A DNA stretch of 38,198 nt from an uncultured Ruminococcus sp. GTDB lineage: Bacteria; Bacillota; Clostridia; Oscillospirales; CAG-382. Below, piece after piece: positions 2,035 through 9,546 of this stretch. Location: positions 1 to 38,198 of the forward strand of contig CACYCI010000025.1 of the NCBI GenBank assembly GCA_902772845.1, in the 5' to 3' direction. The position numbers were made by a program, and so were the translations under genes. Position 1 is the first letter of the stretch; each line of letters opens with the position of its first letter. Below the pieces are notes generated by a model, which did not search any database, was not told the origin of the DNA, and worked only from the letters and a program-made list of their open reading frames with translations.

Positions 2035-3108
2035 TTATCTCTTTACTCTTGCGTTGCCTTTCCATATTGACCAGACCTGGTCTTCGTCGGCGGGCTGCGC
2101 GTAGTCGGTCAGCATAGTCACTGCGAGCGCGCCGCACGACCAGCCGAACTGCAGGCATTTTTCCATGTCCCAGCCCTTTATCACGCCGTAAAGCAGCCCG
2201 CCCACAAATCCGTCGCCGCCGCCTATGCGGTCGAGCACGTCTATCTGGCGCGCGGGCGCTGTGAACCATTCGCCGTTTGCGTTGAGTATGGCGCCCCAAA
2301 GATGTTTTTCCGCCGAGATCACTTCGCGCAGAGTCGTGGCAAACACCGAAGCGTTGGGAAATTCGCGCTTAGCTTCTTCTATAAGGGCGCGGAAAGACCC
2401 CATCTTGCTTTCTATATCTTTTCCGCCGGCTTCGGGGCCTTTTATCCCAAAGCAAAGCTGAAAATCTTCTTCGTTGCCCACAAGGATATCGGCGTTTTGC
2501 GCTATGGTCCTGAACACCTTTTCAAGCTCCGCGCGTCTGCCCTGCCAGAACGATTCCCGGTAGTTCAGATCAAAAGATATCACGGTGCCGTGCTTTTTCG
2601 CCGCTTTTGCAAGCGCAACGCAAAGCTCGCCCGTTTCCTCGGAAAGCGCGGCTATCAGCCCCGAAAGGTGCAGTATTTTTACCCCTTCTTCGCCGAAAAT
2701 GCGTTCCGCGTCGAAATCTGCGGCGCAAAGCGTCCGGCCTACCTCGCCGGCGCGGTCGTTGTGTACGCGCGGGCCGCGCGCTCCGGCGCCGCTGTCGGCT
2801 ATGTTGAACTGATGCCGGTAGCCCCACGGGCCGCCCTGCTCCACTTCTTTGGCGCAGAAAGTCATCCCGCGTGAGCGGAGATTTTGCTTGATGAACGCCG
2901 CTATGGGCGAGTTTTTAACAAAAGCCGTAAGCACCAGCGCCGGTTCGCCCAGGTACGAAGCCACGCTGGCCACGTTGGTTTCGGCGGAAGTCGCCTGCAT
3001 AAAGAACTTGTCCGACGCCTGTACTGGCTGACGGTCAGCGGGCGTTATCCGCACGCCCATGCTGGTGGGGACTGCTATAGACCATTTTGCTTTTTGCCTC
3101 AGTTCCAT
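2035..3108 (-). CDS. PfkB-family sugar kinase, 2-keto-3-deoxygluconate kinase-like
   Basis: This 357-residue ribokinase/PfkB kinase is the last gene of the thyA operon. The C-terminal anion-hole motif reads IGGGDGF (295-301), a variant of the usual GAGD, with D299 as the predicted catalytic base. FDLNYR in the middle is typical of KDG-kinase-like members, which phosphorylate 2-keto-3-deoxygluconate to KDPG. The ATG at 3108 has a GGAGG site and lies 12 bases after the gnd stop. Next to 6-phosphogluconate dehydrogenase and a LarA-like domain, a sugar-acid substrate is likely. Fructokinase or another sugar kinase remains possible because the substrate cannot be read from motifs alone. Confidence 0.8.
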   Translation of the reverse strand: MELRQKAKWSIAVPTSMGVRITPADRQPVQASDKFFMQATSAETNVASVASYLGEPALVLTAFVKNSPIAAFIKQNLRSRGMTFCAKEVEQGGPWGYRHQFNIADSGAGARGPRVHNDRAGEVGRTLCAADFDAERIFGEEGVKILHLSGLIAALSEETGELCVALAKAAKKHGTVISFDLNYRESFWQGRRAELEKVFRTIAQNADILVGNEEDFQLCFGIKGPEAGGKDIESKMGSFRALIEEAKREFPNASVFATTLREVISAEKHLWGAILNANGEWFTAPARQIDVLDRIGGGDGFVGGLLYGVIKGWDMEKCLQFGWSCGALAVTMLTDYAQPADEDQVWSIWKGNARVKR

Positions 3109-3120
3109 AAATGCCTCCGT

Positions 3121-4578
3121 TTAAGCGTTGTATCCGCCGGATACGGTGCTGCCGCCCTCTCCGGTCCAGTTGGTGTGGAAGAATTCGCCGCGCGGCGAAT
3201 CCGTGCGTTCATAAGTGTGCGCGCCGAAATAGTCGCGCTGGGCCTGAAGCAGGTTCTGCGGAAGGCGTTCGTTCCTCCAGCCGTCGAACCACGCGAGCGA
3301 CGCCGAAAAAGCAGGAACGGGTATGCCGCATTCCACCGCGGCGGATACCGTCTTTCTCCAGCCGGCGGTGAGCGTTTGCATCTTCTCTTTGAAATATTCG
3401 TCCAAAAGCAGGTTTGGCAGATCCGGCGCTCTGTCGTACGCTTCTTTTATCTTGCCCAAAAAGACCGACCTTATTATGCAGCCGCCGCGCCACATAAGCG
3501 CTATGCCGCCGTAATTCAGGTCCCAGCCGTATTCCCTGGCGGCTGCGCGCATAAGCGTGTATCCCTGCGCGTACGAAACTATTTTGGAAGCGAGCAGCGC
3601 ACAGCGGATGTTTTCTATGAACGCGGCGCGTTCTTCGGCTGTGAACGCGCGTCTTCCGGTGCCGCCGAATATCGCCGCCGCGCGCACCCTTTCTTCTTTC
3701 ATTGCCGAAAGGCAGCGCGCGAACACCGCCTCGCCTATCAGCGTAAGCGGTACGCCGGCGTCTAACGCCGCCGTCGCGGTCCATTTGCCAGTGCCTTTCT
3801 GCCCCGCGGCGTCAAGTATATGCTCTACAAGCGGCTCGCCGTCTTTGTCTTTGTACGCGAGTATGTCGGCGGTTATTTCTATAAGGTAGCTCTTAAGCTC
3901 GCCTCTGTTCCATTCGGCAAATACGTCGTGCATTTCGTCGCAGCTCATGCCCAGCAGGTCTTTCATAAGCATGTACGCTTCGCAGATTATCTGCATATCG
4001 CCGTACTCTATGCCGTTGTGCACCATTTTTACAAAATGGCCGGCGCCGCCTTCGCCCACCCAGTCGCAGCAGGGCGAGCCGTCTTCGACGTGCGCGCAAA
4101 TGGAAGTGAACAGCGGTTTTACGTACTGCCACGCTTCCGGCGAACCGCCGGGCATCATGGAAGGACCTTTAAGAGCGCCTTCCTCCCCGCCCGAAACGCC
4201 CGTGCCCACATAAAGCAGCCCCTTGGATTCGACGTATGCGGTGCGGCGCGCCGTGTCGGGGAAATGCGAATTCCCGCCGTCTATTATTATGTCGCCTTTT
4301 TCAAGCAGCGGTATCAGCCGTTCTATCATGTCGTCTACCGGCTTGCCGGCCTTTATCATAAGCATAACGCGGCGCGGCTTTTTCAGCGTTGCCACAAGCT
4401 CTTCCGGCGAATACGTGCCGACAATGTTTTTGCCGGCGGCTCTGCCGTTTATAAAATCCGTCACTCTCTGCGTCGTCCGGTTGAATACCGAAACGGTAAA
4501 GCCGTGGCTTTCCATGTTCATAACAAGGTTTTCGCCCATCACGGCGAGCCCTATAAGACCGACGTCGCTTTTTTTCAT
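3121..4578 (-). CDS. gnd: 6-phosphogluconate dehydrogenase, decarboxylating
   Basis: The enzyme oxidises and decarboxylates 6-phosphogluconate to ribulose 5-phosphate, making NADPH in the oxidative pentose phosphate pathway. At 485 residues it is full length. The N-terminal nucleotide fold has GLIGLAVMGENL and NRT at 33-35, which favours NADP. The substrate loop SGGEEGA (129-135) and the catalytic segment with K184, N188 and E191 (FVKMVHNGIEYGDM) are intact. The C-terminal all-helical domain is present. The start ATG overlaps the upstream PHP stop as ATGA, indicating translational coupling. Its NADPH could feed the DHFR domain encoded two genes upstream, which is an inference from operon membership. 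Confidence 0.95.
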   Translation of the reverse strand: MKKSDVGLIGLAVMGENLVMNMESHGFTVSVFNRTTQRVTDFINGRAAGKNIVGTYSPEELVATLKKPRRVMLMIKAGKPVDDMIERLIPLLEKGDIIIDGGNSHFPDTARRTAYVESKGLLYVGTGVSGGEEGALKGPSMMPGGSPEAWQYVKPLFTSICAHVEDGSPCCDWVGEGGAGHFVKMVHNGIEYGDMQIICEAYMLMKDLLGMSCDEMHDVFAEWNRGELKSYLIEITADILAYKDKDGEPLVEHILDAAGQKGTGKWTATAALDAGVPLTLIGEAVFARCLSAMKEERVRAAAIFGGTGRRAFTAEERAAFIENIRCALLASKIVSYAQGYTLMRAAAREYGWDLNYGGIALMWRGGCIIRSVFLGKIKEAYDRAPDLPNLLLDEYFKEKMQTLTAGWRKTVSAAVECGIPVPAFSASLAWFDGWRNERLPQNLLQAQRDYFGAHTYERTDSPRGEFFHTNWTGEGGSTVSGGYNA

Positions 4579-5435
4579 ATCTGTTTACCCTTCCTTTCGG
4601 CGTATGCTTTTTTCATGTTTTCCAGCACGGAATACGGTATTGCCATGTTCCCCAGCCCTTTTCCAATGCTTATGTGCGGCTTGAACGCGCCGTGAAAATC
4701 CGTGCCGCCGCTGATGCACAGCCCCAGACGCGCGGCGAGCGACTGATATTCTTCCTGCATCTGCGGGGTGTATTCGGTATAATATCCCTCAACGCCCGCC
4801 AGACCTTCCGCTTTTAAGCGGAGCAGGAACTCTTCGAGCTCGGCGCCCGTCTTTCGGGTCAGATGCAGGTGAGCGCAGAACGCCATACCGCCCGCGCCGT
4901 TTATCAGCCGCACCGCTTCGGCGTCCGTAAGCGCCTCGCGGCCCGAAAAAGCTGGCCGCCCGTTGGCGAGATATTCGTCGAACGCCTGCTTTACCGAACC
5001 TACATAGCCCTTCTTTACCATAAGCCGCGCAAAATGCGCTCTGCAGAGTATGTCGCTGCCGGCAAGCTCGCGCACCTCGTCCATGGATACCGCAAAGCCC
5101 AGCCCGTTCAGCTTTTGGCAGATCTCGTTCTGCCGTTCGTCGCGCACGGTCCGCGCGTAGCGCAGCTTTTCGCGCAGGGCGGGGTTTTCGGTATCTATAA
5201 AATAGCCGAGTATATGCGTTTCGGTGTTTGACTGAGCCGAAAGCTCTATGGCGGGTATCACTTCTATGCCTATGCGTTTGCCTTCGTCAAGCGCGTCGGC
5301 AACGCCGTCCACACTGTCGTGATCCGAAACCGCCACGGCGGAAAGCCCGCTTTCCTTGGCGTGGCGTACCAGTTCGCGCGCGGTCATGGATCCGTCCGAG
5401 CAGACAGTATGAGTGTGCAGATCTATTGTTTTCAT
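4575..5435 (-). CDS. PHP-domain phosphoesterase, RNase AM/YciV-like
   Basis: This 286-residue PHP-family metal-dependent phosphoesterase begins with HTH (H7, H9) and continues with SDHD (37-40), E64, H74 and the terminal GGTDFHG (about 243-249). These are the metal ligands of the trinuclear centre. Characterised relatives hydrolyse 3',5'-nucleoside bisphosphates such as pAp or trim 5' ends of RNA, and either activity would be cytoplasmic nucleotide recycling. Its start overlaps the end of the DHFR-LarA gene by four bases, and its stop overlaps the gnd start in the same way. The family is clear; the substrate is not. A histidinol-phosphatase role is less likely because no his genes are near. 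Confidence 0.85.
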   Translation of the reverse strand: MKTIDLHTHTVCSDGSMTARELVRHAKESGLSAVAVSDHDSVDGVADALDEGKRIGIEVIPAIELSAQSNTETHILGYFIDTENPALREKLRYARTVRDERQNEICQKLNGLGFAVSMDEVRELAGSDILCRAHFARLMVKKGYVGSVKQAFDEYLANGRPAFSGREALTDAEAVRLINGAGGMAFCAHLHLTRKTGAELEEFLLRLKAEGLAGVEGYYTEYTPQMQEEYQSLAARLGLCISGGTDFHGAFKPHISIGKGLGNMAIPYSVLENMKKAYAERKGKQI

Positions 5436-7210
5436 TTTTCTTCACCGTCAAACGTCCAAAGCCCCAGCGCGGGGTTGGAAACGTAAAAGATCTCTTCGCC
5501 GTCGACCTCGTTCCAGCCGTCTCTAAGCGAATCAACGCGGTATTTCCGCGCCGCCTCTTCGGGCGGCATATATTCAAAGCCGGCGCTTTCCACTTCGGCG
5601 CGCGTCAGTCCGCCGGCGCAGTAGACCACGCGGAACCTGCCGTCCGCAGAACCGTGTATAAGGTGCGCCGCCGCCGAAAGGTTGGCGCGCAGCTCCGATT
5701 CGGTTTTTACAAGCTCAAGCACTTTTTCGCGCCCGCAGTAGCCGTATTTGCGTATGAGCCGGTCGTTTTCGCCGTCTTCGCCGAAACGGCGTACGCCCGG
5801 GGCTATAATTATCAGCCTGCCGCCTTGCGCCATGGCCATGCGCAGACGGTAGATCGCTTTGTTGCCCAGCCAGGTCGAACGGAATTCGCCTGCGTCGAGC
5901 ATCACCACGGCGGTCTTCACCGGCTTTTGCAGGCGGTCCAGATTTATTTTTTGGCTTTGCGCCACGGCGTGTTCAAACAGCTTGCGGTCACGGCCTATAT
6001 ACAGCCCGCGGATATCGGTCTTGCCGCCGCCTGCGCATACCGTGAGCACGTATACTATGGGCAGCCCGGCTATAAAATTCCGTTCGGCGTAGTCAAAGAC
6101 TTTTCTTACCGGCGAAAAGTCGCGGCCCATTATCCGTTCCATGCCGTAGAACGCGCCCAGCGAATGCGAAGCGTTTATCATCCCGCTGCCGCCGCAGCCG
6201 ACGAATATGTTTTTGGAATAGTTTGCCATTCCCACCACTTCGTGCGGGACGACCTGCCCCACGGAAATTATCAGGTCGTACGACGTATCGAGCAGACGCC
6301 GGTTTATTTCTACGGGGACGGGCTCGTCCATAACGCCTTCCGAAACTTCTTTCACGAACTCCGCGGGGACTTCACCCACGCGGACCACGTCGGTGCGCCA
6401 GTTGTGGATCGTCATTTTTTCAAACGGCACGTCGCCGAAAAACTCTTCCCATTCGTCTTTTGTCATCGGGGCGTGCGTTCCCAGCGCAGGCATTATATCC
6501 ACCTCGCACCTGTCTTTAAGCTTGTGCCACAGCATATTCGTTATCATGCCGCCGCCGGAATAAAGCCGGGTGTGATCGGGCGGCAGAATAAGCGCTTTGC
6601 GCGGATTTCTGCTTGCAATAAGCCCGTCCAGCGCCGCGCTTACCGCGCTGCGTGTTATCGGGAACGTGCATCCCAGCTCGGTCGTTCCGTCCCTGCGCGC
6701 GCTTACGCGGCGGTATTCGGTAAAGTAAAATTCAAGCCCGCTTTCGGTGTCTGTGGCGGGATCGCTCGTGAACGTTTCGCTTTGGCTGACGCGCCGCCAT
6801 TCCGGGTCGGAATCGAGATCGGGTATGTAAACGTCTTTTTCGTAAGACTTGTTAAAAAACGTGATATATCCCGTGTCGCAGTAAGGGATCAGCTGGCGGT
6901 ACATGCTCGCGCCGCCTATTACGAAAACGTCGTCCGTGTCGTACGCTTTAAGGATATCAAAAAGTTCGTCCAGCGAATGCGCCACCGTTGCGCCTTCGGG
7001 ATGATAATCCTTATCCCAGTTCAGCACTATGTTGGTGCGTTTGGGCAAAACTTTCCCTCCGGGGAAAGTGGCAAGAGTGTTGGAGCCGTACACTACCACC
7101 TTGCCCGCCGTCACGCGGCGGAAATTGGCAAGATCTGCGCGGACGCGCGCCAGAAGATCGCCCTTGTTGCCTATGCCCCATTCTTTATCGACCGCGACAA
7201 TGAATTTCAT
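5432..7210 (-). CDS. Dihydrofolate reductase fused to LarA-like nickel racemase/epimerase domain
   Basis: One uninterrupted 592-residue frame holds two enzymes. Residues 1-168 are a complete DHFR (dihydrofolate plus NADPH to tetrahydrofolate): IVAVD and GIG at the start, catalytic acid D26 in RADL, and VIGGASMY near 97-104. The usual Trp and Arg of the PW and GR motifs are replaced. Residues about 170-592 match the LarA/DUF2088 family, with DHTR (212-215), H246 in GTH, H323, K333 and H349. The H323-K333-H349 spacing (10 and 16) equals that of Lactiplantibacillus LarA H174-K184-H200, where the Lys carries the nickel-pincer cofactor and the last His binds nickel. The LarA domain seems N-terminally short. 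There is no in-frame start between the domains. AAGGA precedes the ATG, 17 bases after thyA. LarB, LarC and LarE are not in the window. Confidence 0.88.
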   Translation of the reverse strand: MKFIVAVDKEWGIGNKGDLLARVRADLANFRRVTAGKVVVYGSNTLATFPGGKVLPKRTNIVLNWDKDYHPEGATVAHSLDELFDILKAYDTDDVFVIGGASMYRQLIPYCDTGYITFFNKSYEKDVYIPDLDSDPEWRRVSQSETFTSDPATDTESGLEFYFTEYRRVSARRDGTTELGCTFPITRSAVSAALDGLIASRNPRKALILPPDHTRLYSGGGMITNMLWHKLKDRCEVDIMPALGTHAPMTKDEWEEFFGDVPFEKMTIHNWRTDVVRVGEVPAEFVKEVSEGVMDEPVPVEINRRLLDTSYDLIISVGQVVPHEVVGMANYSKNIFVGCGGSGMINASHSLGAFYGMERIMGRDFSPVRKVFDYAERNFIAGLPIVYVLTVCAGGGKTDIRGLYIGRDRKLFEHAVAQSQKINLDRLQKPVKTAVVMLDAGEFRSTWLGNKAIYRLRMAMAQGGRLIIIAPGVRRFGEDGENDRLIRKYGYCGREKVLELVKTESELRANLSAAAHLIHGSADGRFRVVYCAGGLTRAEVESAGFEYMPPEEAARKYRVDSLRDGWNEVDGEEIFYVSNPALGLWTFDGEEK

Positions 7211-7227
7211 TCCTTGTTTTCCTTTCG

Positions 7228-8058
7228 TCAGACCGCAACGGGGAAGCGCGGTATCTTTTCGCCGTGGAGGTAGTTTTCCACTTTGAAGCTTTCGGGTGTG
7301 AAATCGTAAAAATCGGTTATGCTTTTATCCAGCGTGACCGTGGGCGCGGGGTAGGGCTCGCGCTTAATAAGCTCTTCTACAATGGGTATATGCCTGTCGT
7401 AGATATGGCAATCGGCGATAACGTGCACGAACTCGCCCGGCTCCAGCCCCGATACCTGCGCGAACATATACACCAGCGCCGCGTACTGCGCAACGTTCCA
7501 GGCGTTTGCCGCCAGCATATCCTGCGAACGCTGGTTGAGTATGGCGCAGAGCTTTCCGTCGGTGACGTTGAAAGTCATGGAATATGCGCACGGGTACAGC
7601 GCCATTTCGTGAAGATCGGCAAAGTTATAGATGTTGGTCATTATCCGGCGCGAGCAGGGATTGTTTTTAAGGTCGTAAAGCACGCGGTCGACCATGTCGA
7701 ATTCGCCCTCTTTGTATTTGTGCTTGACGCCCATTTGATACCCGTACGCCTTGCCTATGGATCCGTTTTCGTCCGCCCACGCGTCCCAGATATGGCTGCC
7801 CAGGTCGTGTACGTTGTTGGATTTTTTTTGCCAGATCCACAGGATCTCGTCTACTGCGGCTTTCAGCGATATGGGGCGGATCGTTATGAGCGGGAATTCT
7901 TTGGAAAGATCGTAGCGGTTCACCACGCCGAACACCTTTTTGGTGTATGCGGGCGTGCCGTCGTCCCATTTCGGACGCACCCGCTCGTCGCGGACCCAGC
8001 TCCCGTTATCTATTATGTTGCGGCAAGTTGCGATAAAAGCGGTGTCTGCGCTGCTCAT
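7228..8058 (-). CDS. thyA: Thymidylate synthase ThyA
   Basis: ThyA methylates dUMP to dTMP with methylenetetrahydrofolate, releasing dihydrofolate for the DHFR domain encoded 17 bases downstream. The 276 residues include the SHIWDAWADE segment, the RR phosphate-binding pair (137-138), catalytic C157, QRSQD (176-180), N188 and the terminal PVAV. The His that normally follows the catalytic Cys is replaced: LYPCAY instead of PPCH. From memory this PCAY form is usual in clostridial ThyA and is not damage. The ATG at 8058 has a GGAGG site. It is the first gene of the five-gene minus-strand operon. Confidence 0.95.
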   Translation of the reverse strand: MSSADTAFIATCRNIIDNGSWVRDERVRPKWDDGTPAYTKKVFGVVNRYDLSKEFPLITIRPISLKAAVDEILWIWQKKSNNVHDLGSHIWDAWADENGSIGKAYGYQMGVKHKYKEGEFDMVDRVLYDLKNNPCSRRIMTNIYNFADLHEMALYPCAYSMTFNVTDGKLCAILNQRSQDMLAANAWNVAQYAALVYMFAQVSGLEPGEFVHVIADCHIYDRHIPIVEELIKREPYPAPTVTLDKSITDFYDFTPESFKVENYLHGEKIPRFPVAV

Positions 8059-8142: not shown

Positions 8143-9546
8143 GTGAAAGTGCGCGCCCGTGTGAACGGCACGGAATATCAAAAAGAATATACCGGCCCCG
8201 TCACGGCGGCGCAGGCGCTTGCCGATATGGGCGCGCCGTTTTATTCGCCCTGCGGCGGAAAAGGCGTCTGCGGCAAATGCCGCGTGCATATCGCCGGAGA
8301 ATATCGCCCTGAAAGCCCCGATGGCAGCGCGCTCGCCTGCCGGACGGTCCTCACCGGGGACTCTTATATAATTTATAACACAACGGCGGACAAAATTCAA
8401 GTGCTATCGTCGAACGGAGCTGCCAAAATTGCGCCGCTCGGCGGCGAAGACAAGGTCGGCTGCGCCGTGGATATAGGGACCACCACCGTGGCGTGTTCCG
8501 CGTATTCTCTGCGCGATGGCAGTCCGCTTTATACTTGCGGCGCGCCGAACCCCCAGGCGGCTCACGGCGCCGACGTCATAAGCCGTATAGAATTCGCCGC
8601 TTCCGGCGGCGCCGGGATCCTGCAAGACGAAATATCCGCCTGCGTCGGGGCGCTCGCTTGCGGCGAAAGACGCGTGGTAACAGGCAACACCGCAATGCTG
8701 TGCCTGCTCTGCGGCGAGGACGTTTCCGGCTTGCGCGTCTGGCCTTTTTCCGCCCCATCGCTTTTCGGCCACGAAAAGGACGGCGTATATTACGCGCCGT
8801 GCGCTTCGCCGTTTTTCGGCGCGGACGCGGTCTGCGCGGTCGCGGAATGTATGGTCCCGGGCGAGCCGTGCATAGTGGCGGATATAGGCACCAACGCCGA
8901 ACTGTTCTGCTATGACGGCGCCGATACGCTGCTTTGCACGTCCGCTTCCGCGGGGCCATGCTTCGAAGGCGGCGGCATGGCGTGCGGTATGCCCGCGTGC
9001 GAAGGCGCGGTGAACGCCGTGGTATCAAACGGCGGCGGACCCGAATATTCTGTCATCGGCGGCGGAAAGCCGCGCGGACTGTGCGGGACCGGTATCGCGG
9101 ACCTTGCCGCGTATTTGCTGAAATGCGGTCACATGGATCCGAGCGGCAGGATGGCGGGAACGTATTATCTTACCGAAGACGTGTTTTTTACCGCGCGGGA
9201 CGCGCGTTCGCTCCAGCTTGCAAAATCCGCCGTCAGGGCGGGGATCGAAACGCTGCTGGATATGTGTTCCGTGCGCGGAAAGATAAAAAAATTTTATATA
9301 GCGGGCGGTTTCGGCAGCGCGCTTTCGCCGCAGACCGCCGCTGATCTGGGCATTATCCCGCGGGAATTCCGCGATCTGTGCGTCACCGCGGGCAACGCCG
9401 CGCTGGCGGGCGCCGCGCGCGCGGTCACCGACGTCGGGTTCAGGCGGTATCTGGAAGAGACGGCGCGCAGATGCCGCTGTGTAGAGCTTGCAAACAGCGA
9501 CGGTTTTGAACGTAAATTTATTAAATATATGCAGTTCGGAGGTTGA
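8143..9546 (+). CDS. RACE-type corrinoid-enzyme activator (2Fe-2S plus ASKHA domains)
   Basis: The protein resembles RamA/RACE factors that reduce inactive Co(II) corrinoid proteins using ATP. Residues 1-75 form a 2Fe-2S ferredoxin-like domain with C37, C43, C46 and C66. From about residue 105 an ASKHA-fold ATPase follows, with VDIGTTTV (about 109-116), VADIGTNAEL and a late IAGGFGSAL. At 467 residues it is shorter than the classical proteins (over 500), mostly in the region between the domains. The GTG at 8143 is preceded by an AGAGGCGG site, and it starts a plus-strand operon with the M20 peptidase. No methyltransferase or corrinoid protein is encoded in this window, so its partner must be elsewhere. 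Confidence 0.85.
   Translation: MKVRARVNGTEYQKEYTGPVTAAQALADMGAPFYSPCGGKGVCGKCRVHIAGEYRPESPDGSALACRTVLTGDSYIIYNTTADKIQVLSSNGAAKIAPLGGEDKVGCAVDIGTTTVACSAYSLRDGSPLYTCGAPNPQAAHGADVISRIEFAASGGAGILQDEISACVGALACGERRVVTGNTAMLCLLCGEDVSGLRVWPFSAPSLFGHEKDGVYYAPCASPFFGADAVCAVAECMVPGEPCIVADIGTNAELFCYDGADTLLCTSASAGPCFEGGGMACGMPACEGAVNAVVSNGGGPEYSVIGGGKPRGLCGTGIADLAAYLLKCGHMDPSGRMAGTYYLTEDVFFTARDARSLQLAKSAVRAGIETLLDMCSVRGKIKKFYIAGGFGSALSPQTAADLGIIPREFRDLCVTAGNAALAGAARAVTDVGFRRYLEETARRCRCVELANSDGFERKFIKYMQFGG

Follow-up and report, generated by a model that had tools for sequence, protein, structure and literature searches.

A dihydrofolate reductase fused in frame to a LarA-type putative hexonate epimerase in Clostridia species lacking LarB, LarC and LarE matches

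The window, i.e. the whole stretch of 38,198 nucleotides analysed here, from an uncultured Ruminococcus sp., raises the question whether a dihydrofolate reductase (DHFR) and a LarA-type enzyme are really produced there as one protein and, if so, what the joining brings to either of them. The original prediction placed both in a single frame. The open reading frame itself, devoid of internal stops (Table 1), the matches to Pfam and NCBIfam profiles and the occurrence of the same fusion in two more species confirm it. The proposed profile search matched both domains in the 592-residue protein: PF00186 over residues 2–168 (119.8 bits for a gathering cut-off of 25, profile positions 3–159 of 159, i.e. 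its full length) and PF09861 over residues 203–351 (5.4e-13). The LarA half further covers nearly the whole NCBIfam profile NF052594, “putative hexonate epimerase”, over residues 187–586, with 609.7 bits against a curated cut-off of 500. In a structure model of the fusion the LarA half is good and the DHFR half poor, probably because few sequences covered the DHFR.

Table 1. The fused gene, its parts and its neighbours (positions in the window)
Feature	Positions	Strand	Remarks
folA-larA fused gene	5432..7210	minus	592 codons and stop, ATG start; same length and frame in the two other fused species
DHFR domain, residues 1–168	6707..7210	minus	PF00186, 1.2e-34
Junction/linker, residues 169–186	6653..6706	minus	Fast-evolving; no indel or stop between species
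LarA-type domain, residues 187–592	5435..6652	minus	NF052594, 609.7 bits; group 18 putative hexonate epimerase
RBS-like AAAGGA	7220..7225	minus	9 bases before the ATG of folA-larA
thyA, thymidylate synthase	7228..8058	minus	PF00303, 1.9e-88; directly upstream, 17-base gap
php, PHP-domain phosphoesterase	4575..5435	minus	PF02811; start overlaps the folA-larA stop (ATGA); nearest NCBIfam NF041577, score below that family's cut-off
gnd, NADP-dependent 6-phosphogluconate dehydrogenase	3121..4578	minus	TIGR00873, 761 bits; start overlaps the php stop (ATGA)
PfkB-family sugar(-acid) kinase	2035..3108	minus	PF00294; last gene of the larA-php-gnd-kinase order

A single frame might arise from an error of assembly or sequencing, in which an indel or the loss of a stop near position 6700 would have merged two genes. 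All three genomes bearing the fusion are metagenome assemblies—as are, so far as record titles tell, the Clostridia genomes compared here. However, the same full-length fusion, 86% identical, was recovered from separate assemblies of three of the four species of the genus: the window's species (G000) and two others (G001 and G002). The identical 592-codon frame persists despite a dS of 0.7–0.9 between the window and either sister, and these sisters show neither indel nor missed stop at the junction, so that an artefact is hardly conceivable. The frame had also been said to contain no internal start. This holds for the window, where no in-frame ATG, GTG or TTG lies between residues 151 and 221, but not for the sister species, whose fusions have possible start codons at residues 176 (GTG) and 185 (ATG), both without obvious ribosome-binding site.

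Purifying selection acts on both halves of the fusion, as indicated by a dN/dS of 0.05 for the DHFR domain and 0.15 for the LarA domain, the latter being slightly less constrained than usual: the neighbouring genes range from 0.04 to 0.11, and the unfused LarA pairs tried from 0.025 to 0.135. As the LarA value exceeds those of all the unfused pairs tried, some relaxation or a change of role is possible for this half. The linker is only 44% identical between species; its length is nevertheless unchanged and its frame never broken. The domain order, which was to be sought in related genomes, is shared by the two sister species, and a scan of 63 genomes of the family and 394 of the order detected no further DHFR-LarA fusion. 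Three candidates were discarded: the longer N-terminal matches in G354 and G275 are ordinary upstream sequence, and a long open frame at locus L076 has no DHFR match. No DHFR-LarA enzyme was found in the literature searched, in agreement with the initial claim, and as far as could be checked the domain architecture appears to be new.

In the DHFR half, the lack of PW and GR motifs had raised the suspicion of degeneration. The motifs are indeed absent: the equivalents of Trp22 and Arg44 are replaced, while those of the catalytic Asp27, Arg57 and Thr113 are kept (E. coli numbering, aligned to the FolA sequence). Trp22 and Arg44 are common in DHFRs, not universal. In the nearest genera, unfused DHFRs do not possess the two motifs either, so that on these alignments their loss is a trait of the lineage and not decay; with a dN/dS of 0.05 in addition, the suspected degeneration finds no confirmation. 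The closest solved relatives of this half are bacterial DHFRs. Compared with a chromosomal FolA encoded beside thyA, it has the same DHFR profile, the catalytic Asp, the Arg57 and Thr113 equivalents and the thyA-folA order, and differs by the two replaced residues and by the LarA extension at its C-terminus. ThyA makes dihydrofolate. The fused DHFR is the only one found in the genome and adjoins thyA, so that its activity is very likely.

The LarA half keeps all the residues expected of its family. His323, Lys333 and His349 have the spacing (+10/+16) of H174, K184 and H200 of LarA, just as predicted, and with D212, R215 and H246 they make up the conserved residues that bind the nickel-pincer nucleotide, NPN (R, K and H), and those that act in catalysis (D, H and H). 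R215, K333 and H349 align with R41, K164 and H180 of Thermotoga maritima GntE2, which are the NPN ligands of that protein (PMC7583248). GntE2 (4nar) is also the best PDB match of this half both by sequence and by fold (Foldseek E 1.2e-25, with 5huq, 7s91 and 9eid also matched). For group 18 of the LarA family, hexonate epimerisation has been proposed only (PMC7583248). In marine Alteromonadaceae, the group 18 LarA adjoins or is fused to a gluconokinase, with larB, larE and either gnd or uxaC close by; that of Catenovulum follows a gluconokinase and precedes larC, larE and larB. These neighbourhoods, and the gnd and PfkB kinase genes of the window, make mannonate/gluconate our best guess of substrate, which the LarA half would probably epimerise if loaded with NPN. 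The fusion thus resembles group 18 proteins and GntE2 by passing the NF052594 cut-off, by its NPN-binding and catalytic residues and by its gnd/kinase context; it alone bears a complete N-terminal DHFR, and its host displays no LarB, LarC or LarE, a trait of the host rather than of the protein. Another LarA-like match in the window's species (contig C130) does not reach the Pfam cut-off and resembles a ferredoxin-domain protein.

How the two genes were joined is suggested by the organisation of related loci. The unfused larA-php-gnd-kinase operon is common among related Clostridia, and this order is kept in 27 of 50 scored loci, two of the 50 coming from the fused species. The genus has a fourth species, G003, whose syntenic locus comprises in this order thyA, a folA of 170 aa that ends with a stop of its own, a CvpA-like gene of 724 aa, php and gnd; the unfused DHFR stops at the position of the fusion's linker. 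The 724-aa protein, with a CvpA domain (PF02674; L119:2521-4695), occupies between folA and php the place of the LarA domain in the fused species. Upstream of thyA, G003 encodes corrinoid-binding-like and methyltransferase-like proteins, judging from their sequences, and in the window a short RACo-like ferredoxin/ASKHA protein (8143-9546), of the corrinoid-protein activator type, diverges from thyA. Farther away, the window encodes an M23 peptidase that weakly matches a ricin-type beta-trefoil lectin (901-1824).

We consider it probable that two operon neighbours fused to give one polypeptide of two independent enzymes. The route that we infer is the following: thyA-folA would have come to stand directly before the larA of a larA-php-gnd-kinase operon and, in the ancestor of the three species, both the stop of folA and the start of the larA next to it would have disappeared, yielding a 592-residue polypeptide with a short linker of variable sequence between its two enzymes. 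The DHFR half would then supply the ThyA encoded next to it with regenerated tetrahydrofolate. The LarA half, once loaded with an NPN that we infer to come from outside the known pathway, would epimerise a hexonate at C2, most likely D-mannonate to D-gluconate and back, and the kinase and Gnd could carry the hexonate into the pentose phosphate pathway. The joining would mainly lead to co-expression in equal amounts; channelling between the halves is not expected.

A closer link had nevertheless been envisaged, the fusion tying the nickel-pincer enzyme to the folate or NADPH supply, e.g. through NADPH from Gnd feeding DHFR, or through channelling. The presence of the NADPH producer gnd in the same operon and the maintenance of the fusion over a dS near 0.8, its linker staying free of stops, are in favour of it. 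At the opposite, the linker is not conserved, the fusion is restricted to three species of one genus of which the fourth does without it, and both DHFR and group 18 LarA have other fusion partners elsewhere. G010, of a related genus of the same family, has directly after thyA a 320-aa in-frame fusion of a DHFR with a GNAT acetyltransferase (L138:4220-5182 on contig C33). Here too folA is fused at its 3' end after thyA, but the partner domain is unrelated to LarA and this case is known from one genome. On a plasmid of Saccharobesus litoralis (NZ_CP026605.1, L170:8482-10251), a 589-aa protein annotated as gluconokinase only (WP_159084288.1) comprises a gluconokinase (residues 3-157) and a group 18 LarA (171-581); its operon contains larE, larB, a gene of the tagaturonate epimerase family and gnd. 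The same LarA group thus forms the C-terminal half, again within a gnd operon, but the partner is a consecutive step of the pathway and larB and larE are alongside, unlike the DHFR-LarA case. Taken together, these two fusions indicate that the C-terminus of DHFR and the N-terminus of LarA accept varied partners, the partner being seemingly whichever operon gene stood adjacent. As partners vary in this way, and given the narrow range of the fusion and the probable former vicinity of its two genes, the link to folate or NADPH supply is not upheld and functional coupling appears very improbable.

The source of the cofactor is more intriguing. The NPN synthesis proteins LarB, LarC and LarE gave no match over cut-off in the window's species nor in the two other fused species, whose genomes are 99% (G001) and 97% (G002) complete. 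A weak LarE match in G001 reads as a GMP-synthetase-like protein, and weak LarB matches in the fused species concern the AIR-carboxylase-like part only, consistent with PurE. G003 possesses all three proteins, with larE, larB and larA in one cluster, its LarA being distant. In the set of 50 genomes having a close LarA, which includes two of the fused species, LarC and LarE are both present in 19, both absent in 29 and dissociated in 2; this agreement in 48 of 50 genomes is weak if taken alone, since clustered genes are lost together. LarB, sought in 37 genomes, exceeded the cut-off only in G003, G068, G078 and G111, and is in two pieces in G066; no genome lacking LarC as well as LarE had it among these 37. 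LarC was detected in just 10 of the 30 genomes at least 90% complete that have a LarA of this kind, and the presence of NPN genes shows clustering over the LarA tree, with 9 changes for a shuffled mean of 17.6 (none of 500 shufflings being as low). The tree clustering, the LarC/LarE agreement and the rarity of LarC in these rather complete genomes together make a random loss of genes in metagenome assemblies unlikely. The PHP gene was tried as a marker of the missing NPN genes, without significant association (p 0.077). In several genomes without LarC and LarE we also noticed further LarA homologues, one or two per genome, of other subfamilies and with intact D-x-T-R and H-K-H motifs (G069, G072, G076, G077, G089, G092, G097, G102, G106, G109 and G110; loci L140-L144, L146-L150 and L152).

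The absence of LarB, LarC and LarE in the three fused species opens the way to a LarA half that is unloaded or uses something else: it might no longer be an NPN enzyme, but an apo-protein with another role (sugar-acid binding, structure or regulation) or one employing another cofactor. The somewhat raised dN/dS of this half would fit such a change. However, all the NPN-binding and catalytic residues are kept, and the active-site residues are the same in the LarA of genomes with and without NPN genes; in the latter, moreover, unfused LarA is strongly constrained (dN/dS 0.034–0.11). Besides, where NPN genes are present (19 genomes), this LarA is the sole one in 14 cases, so that it is the likely client of NPN there. 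We thus find a LarA half that has left NPN chemistry rather unlikely. That LarA of this kind, the DHFR fusion included, works in gut Clostridia without LarB, LarC and LarE we judge about evenly balanced: it might depend on NPN taken up from other members of the community, on NPN made by an undescribed route or on a different cofactor held by these residues. A LarA without LarB, LarC and LarE was not found described in the part of the literature covered.

In the DHFR-LarA protein an essential enzyme that is a drug target is linked to a member of an organometallic enzyme family; the fusion reads as a harmless evolutionary accident keeping both genes co-expressed. Published surveys have stressed the genomes with NPN synthesis and no LarA (PMC11796402). 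The reverse case is met here, an intact and conserved LarA in near-complete genomes without the NPN synthesis genes, and it matters more than the fusion itself: if it is confirmed in isolates, one could test directly whether the cofactor is shared or NPN is made by a second pathway.
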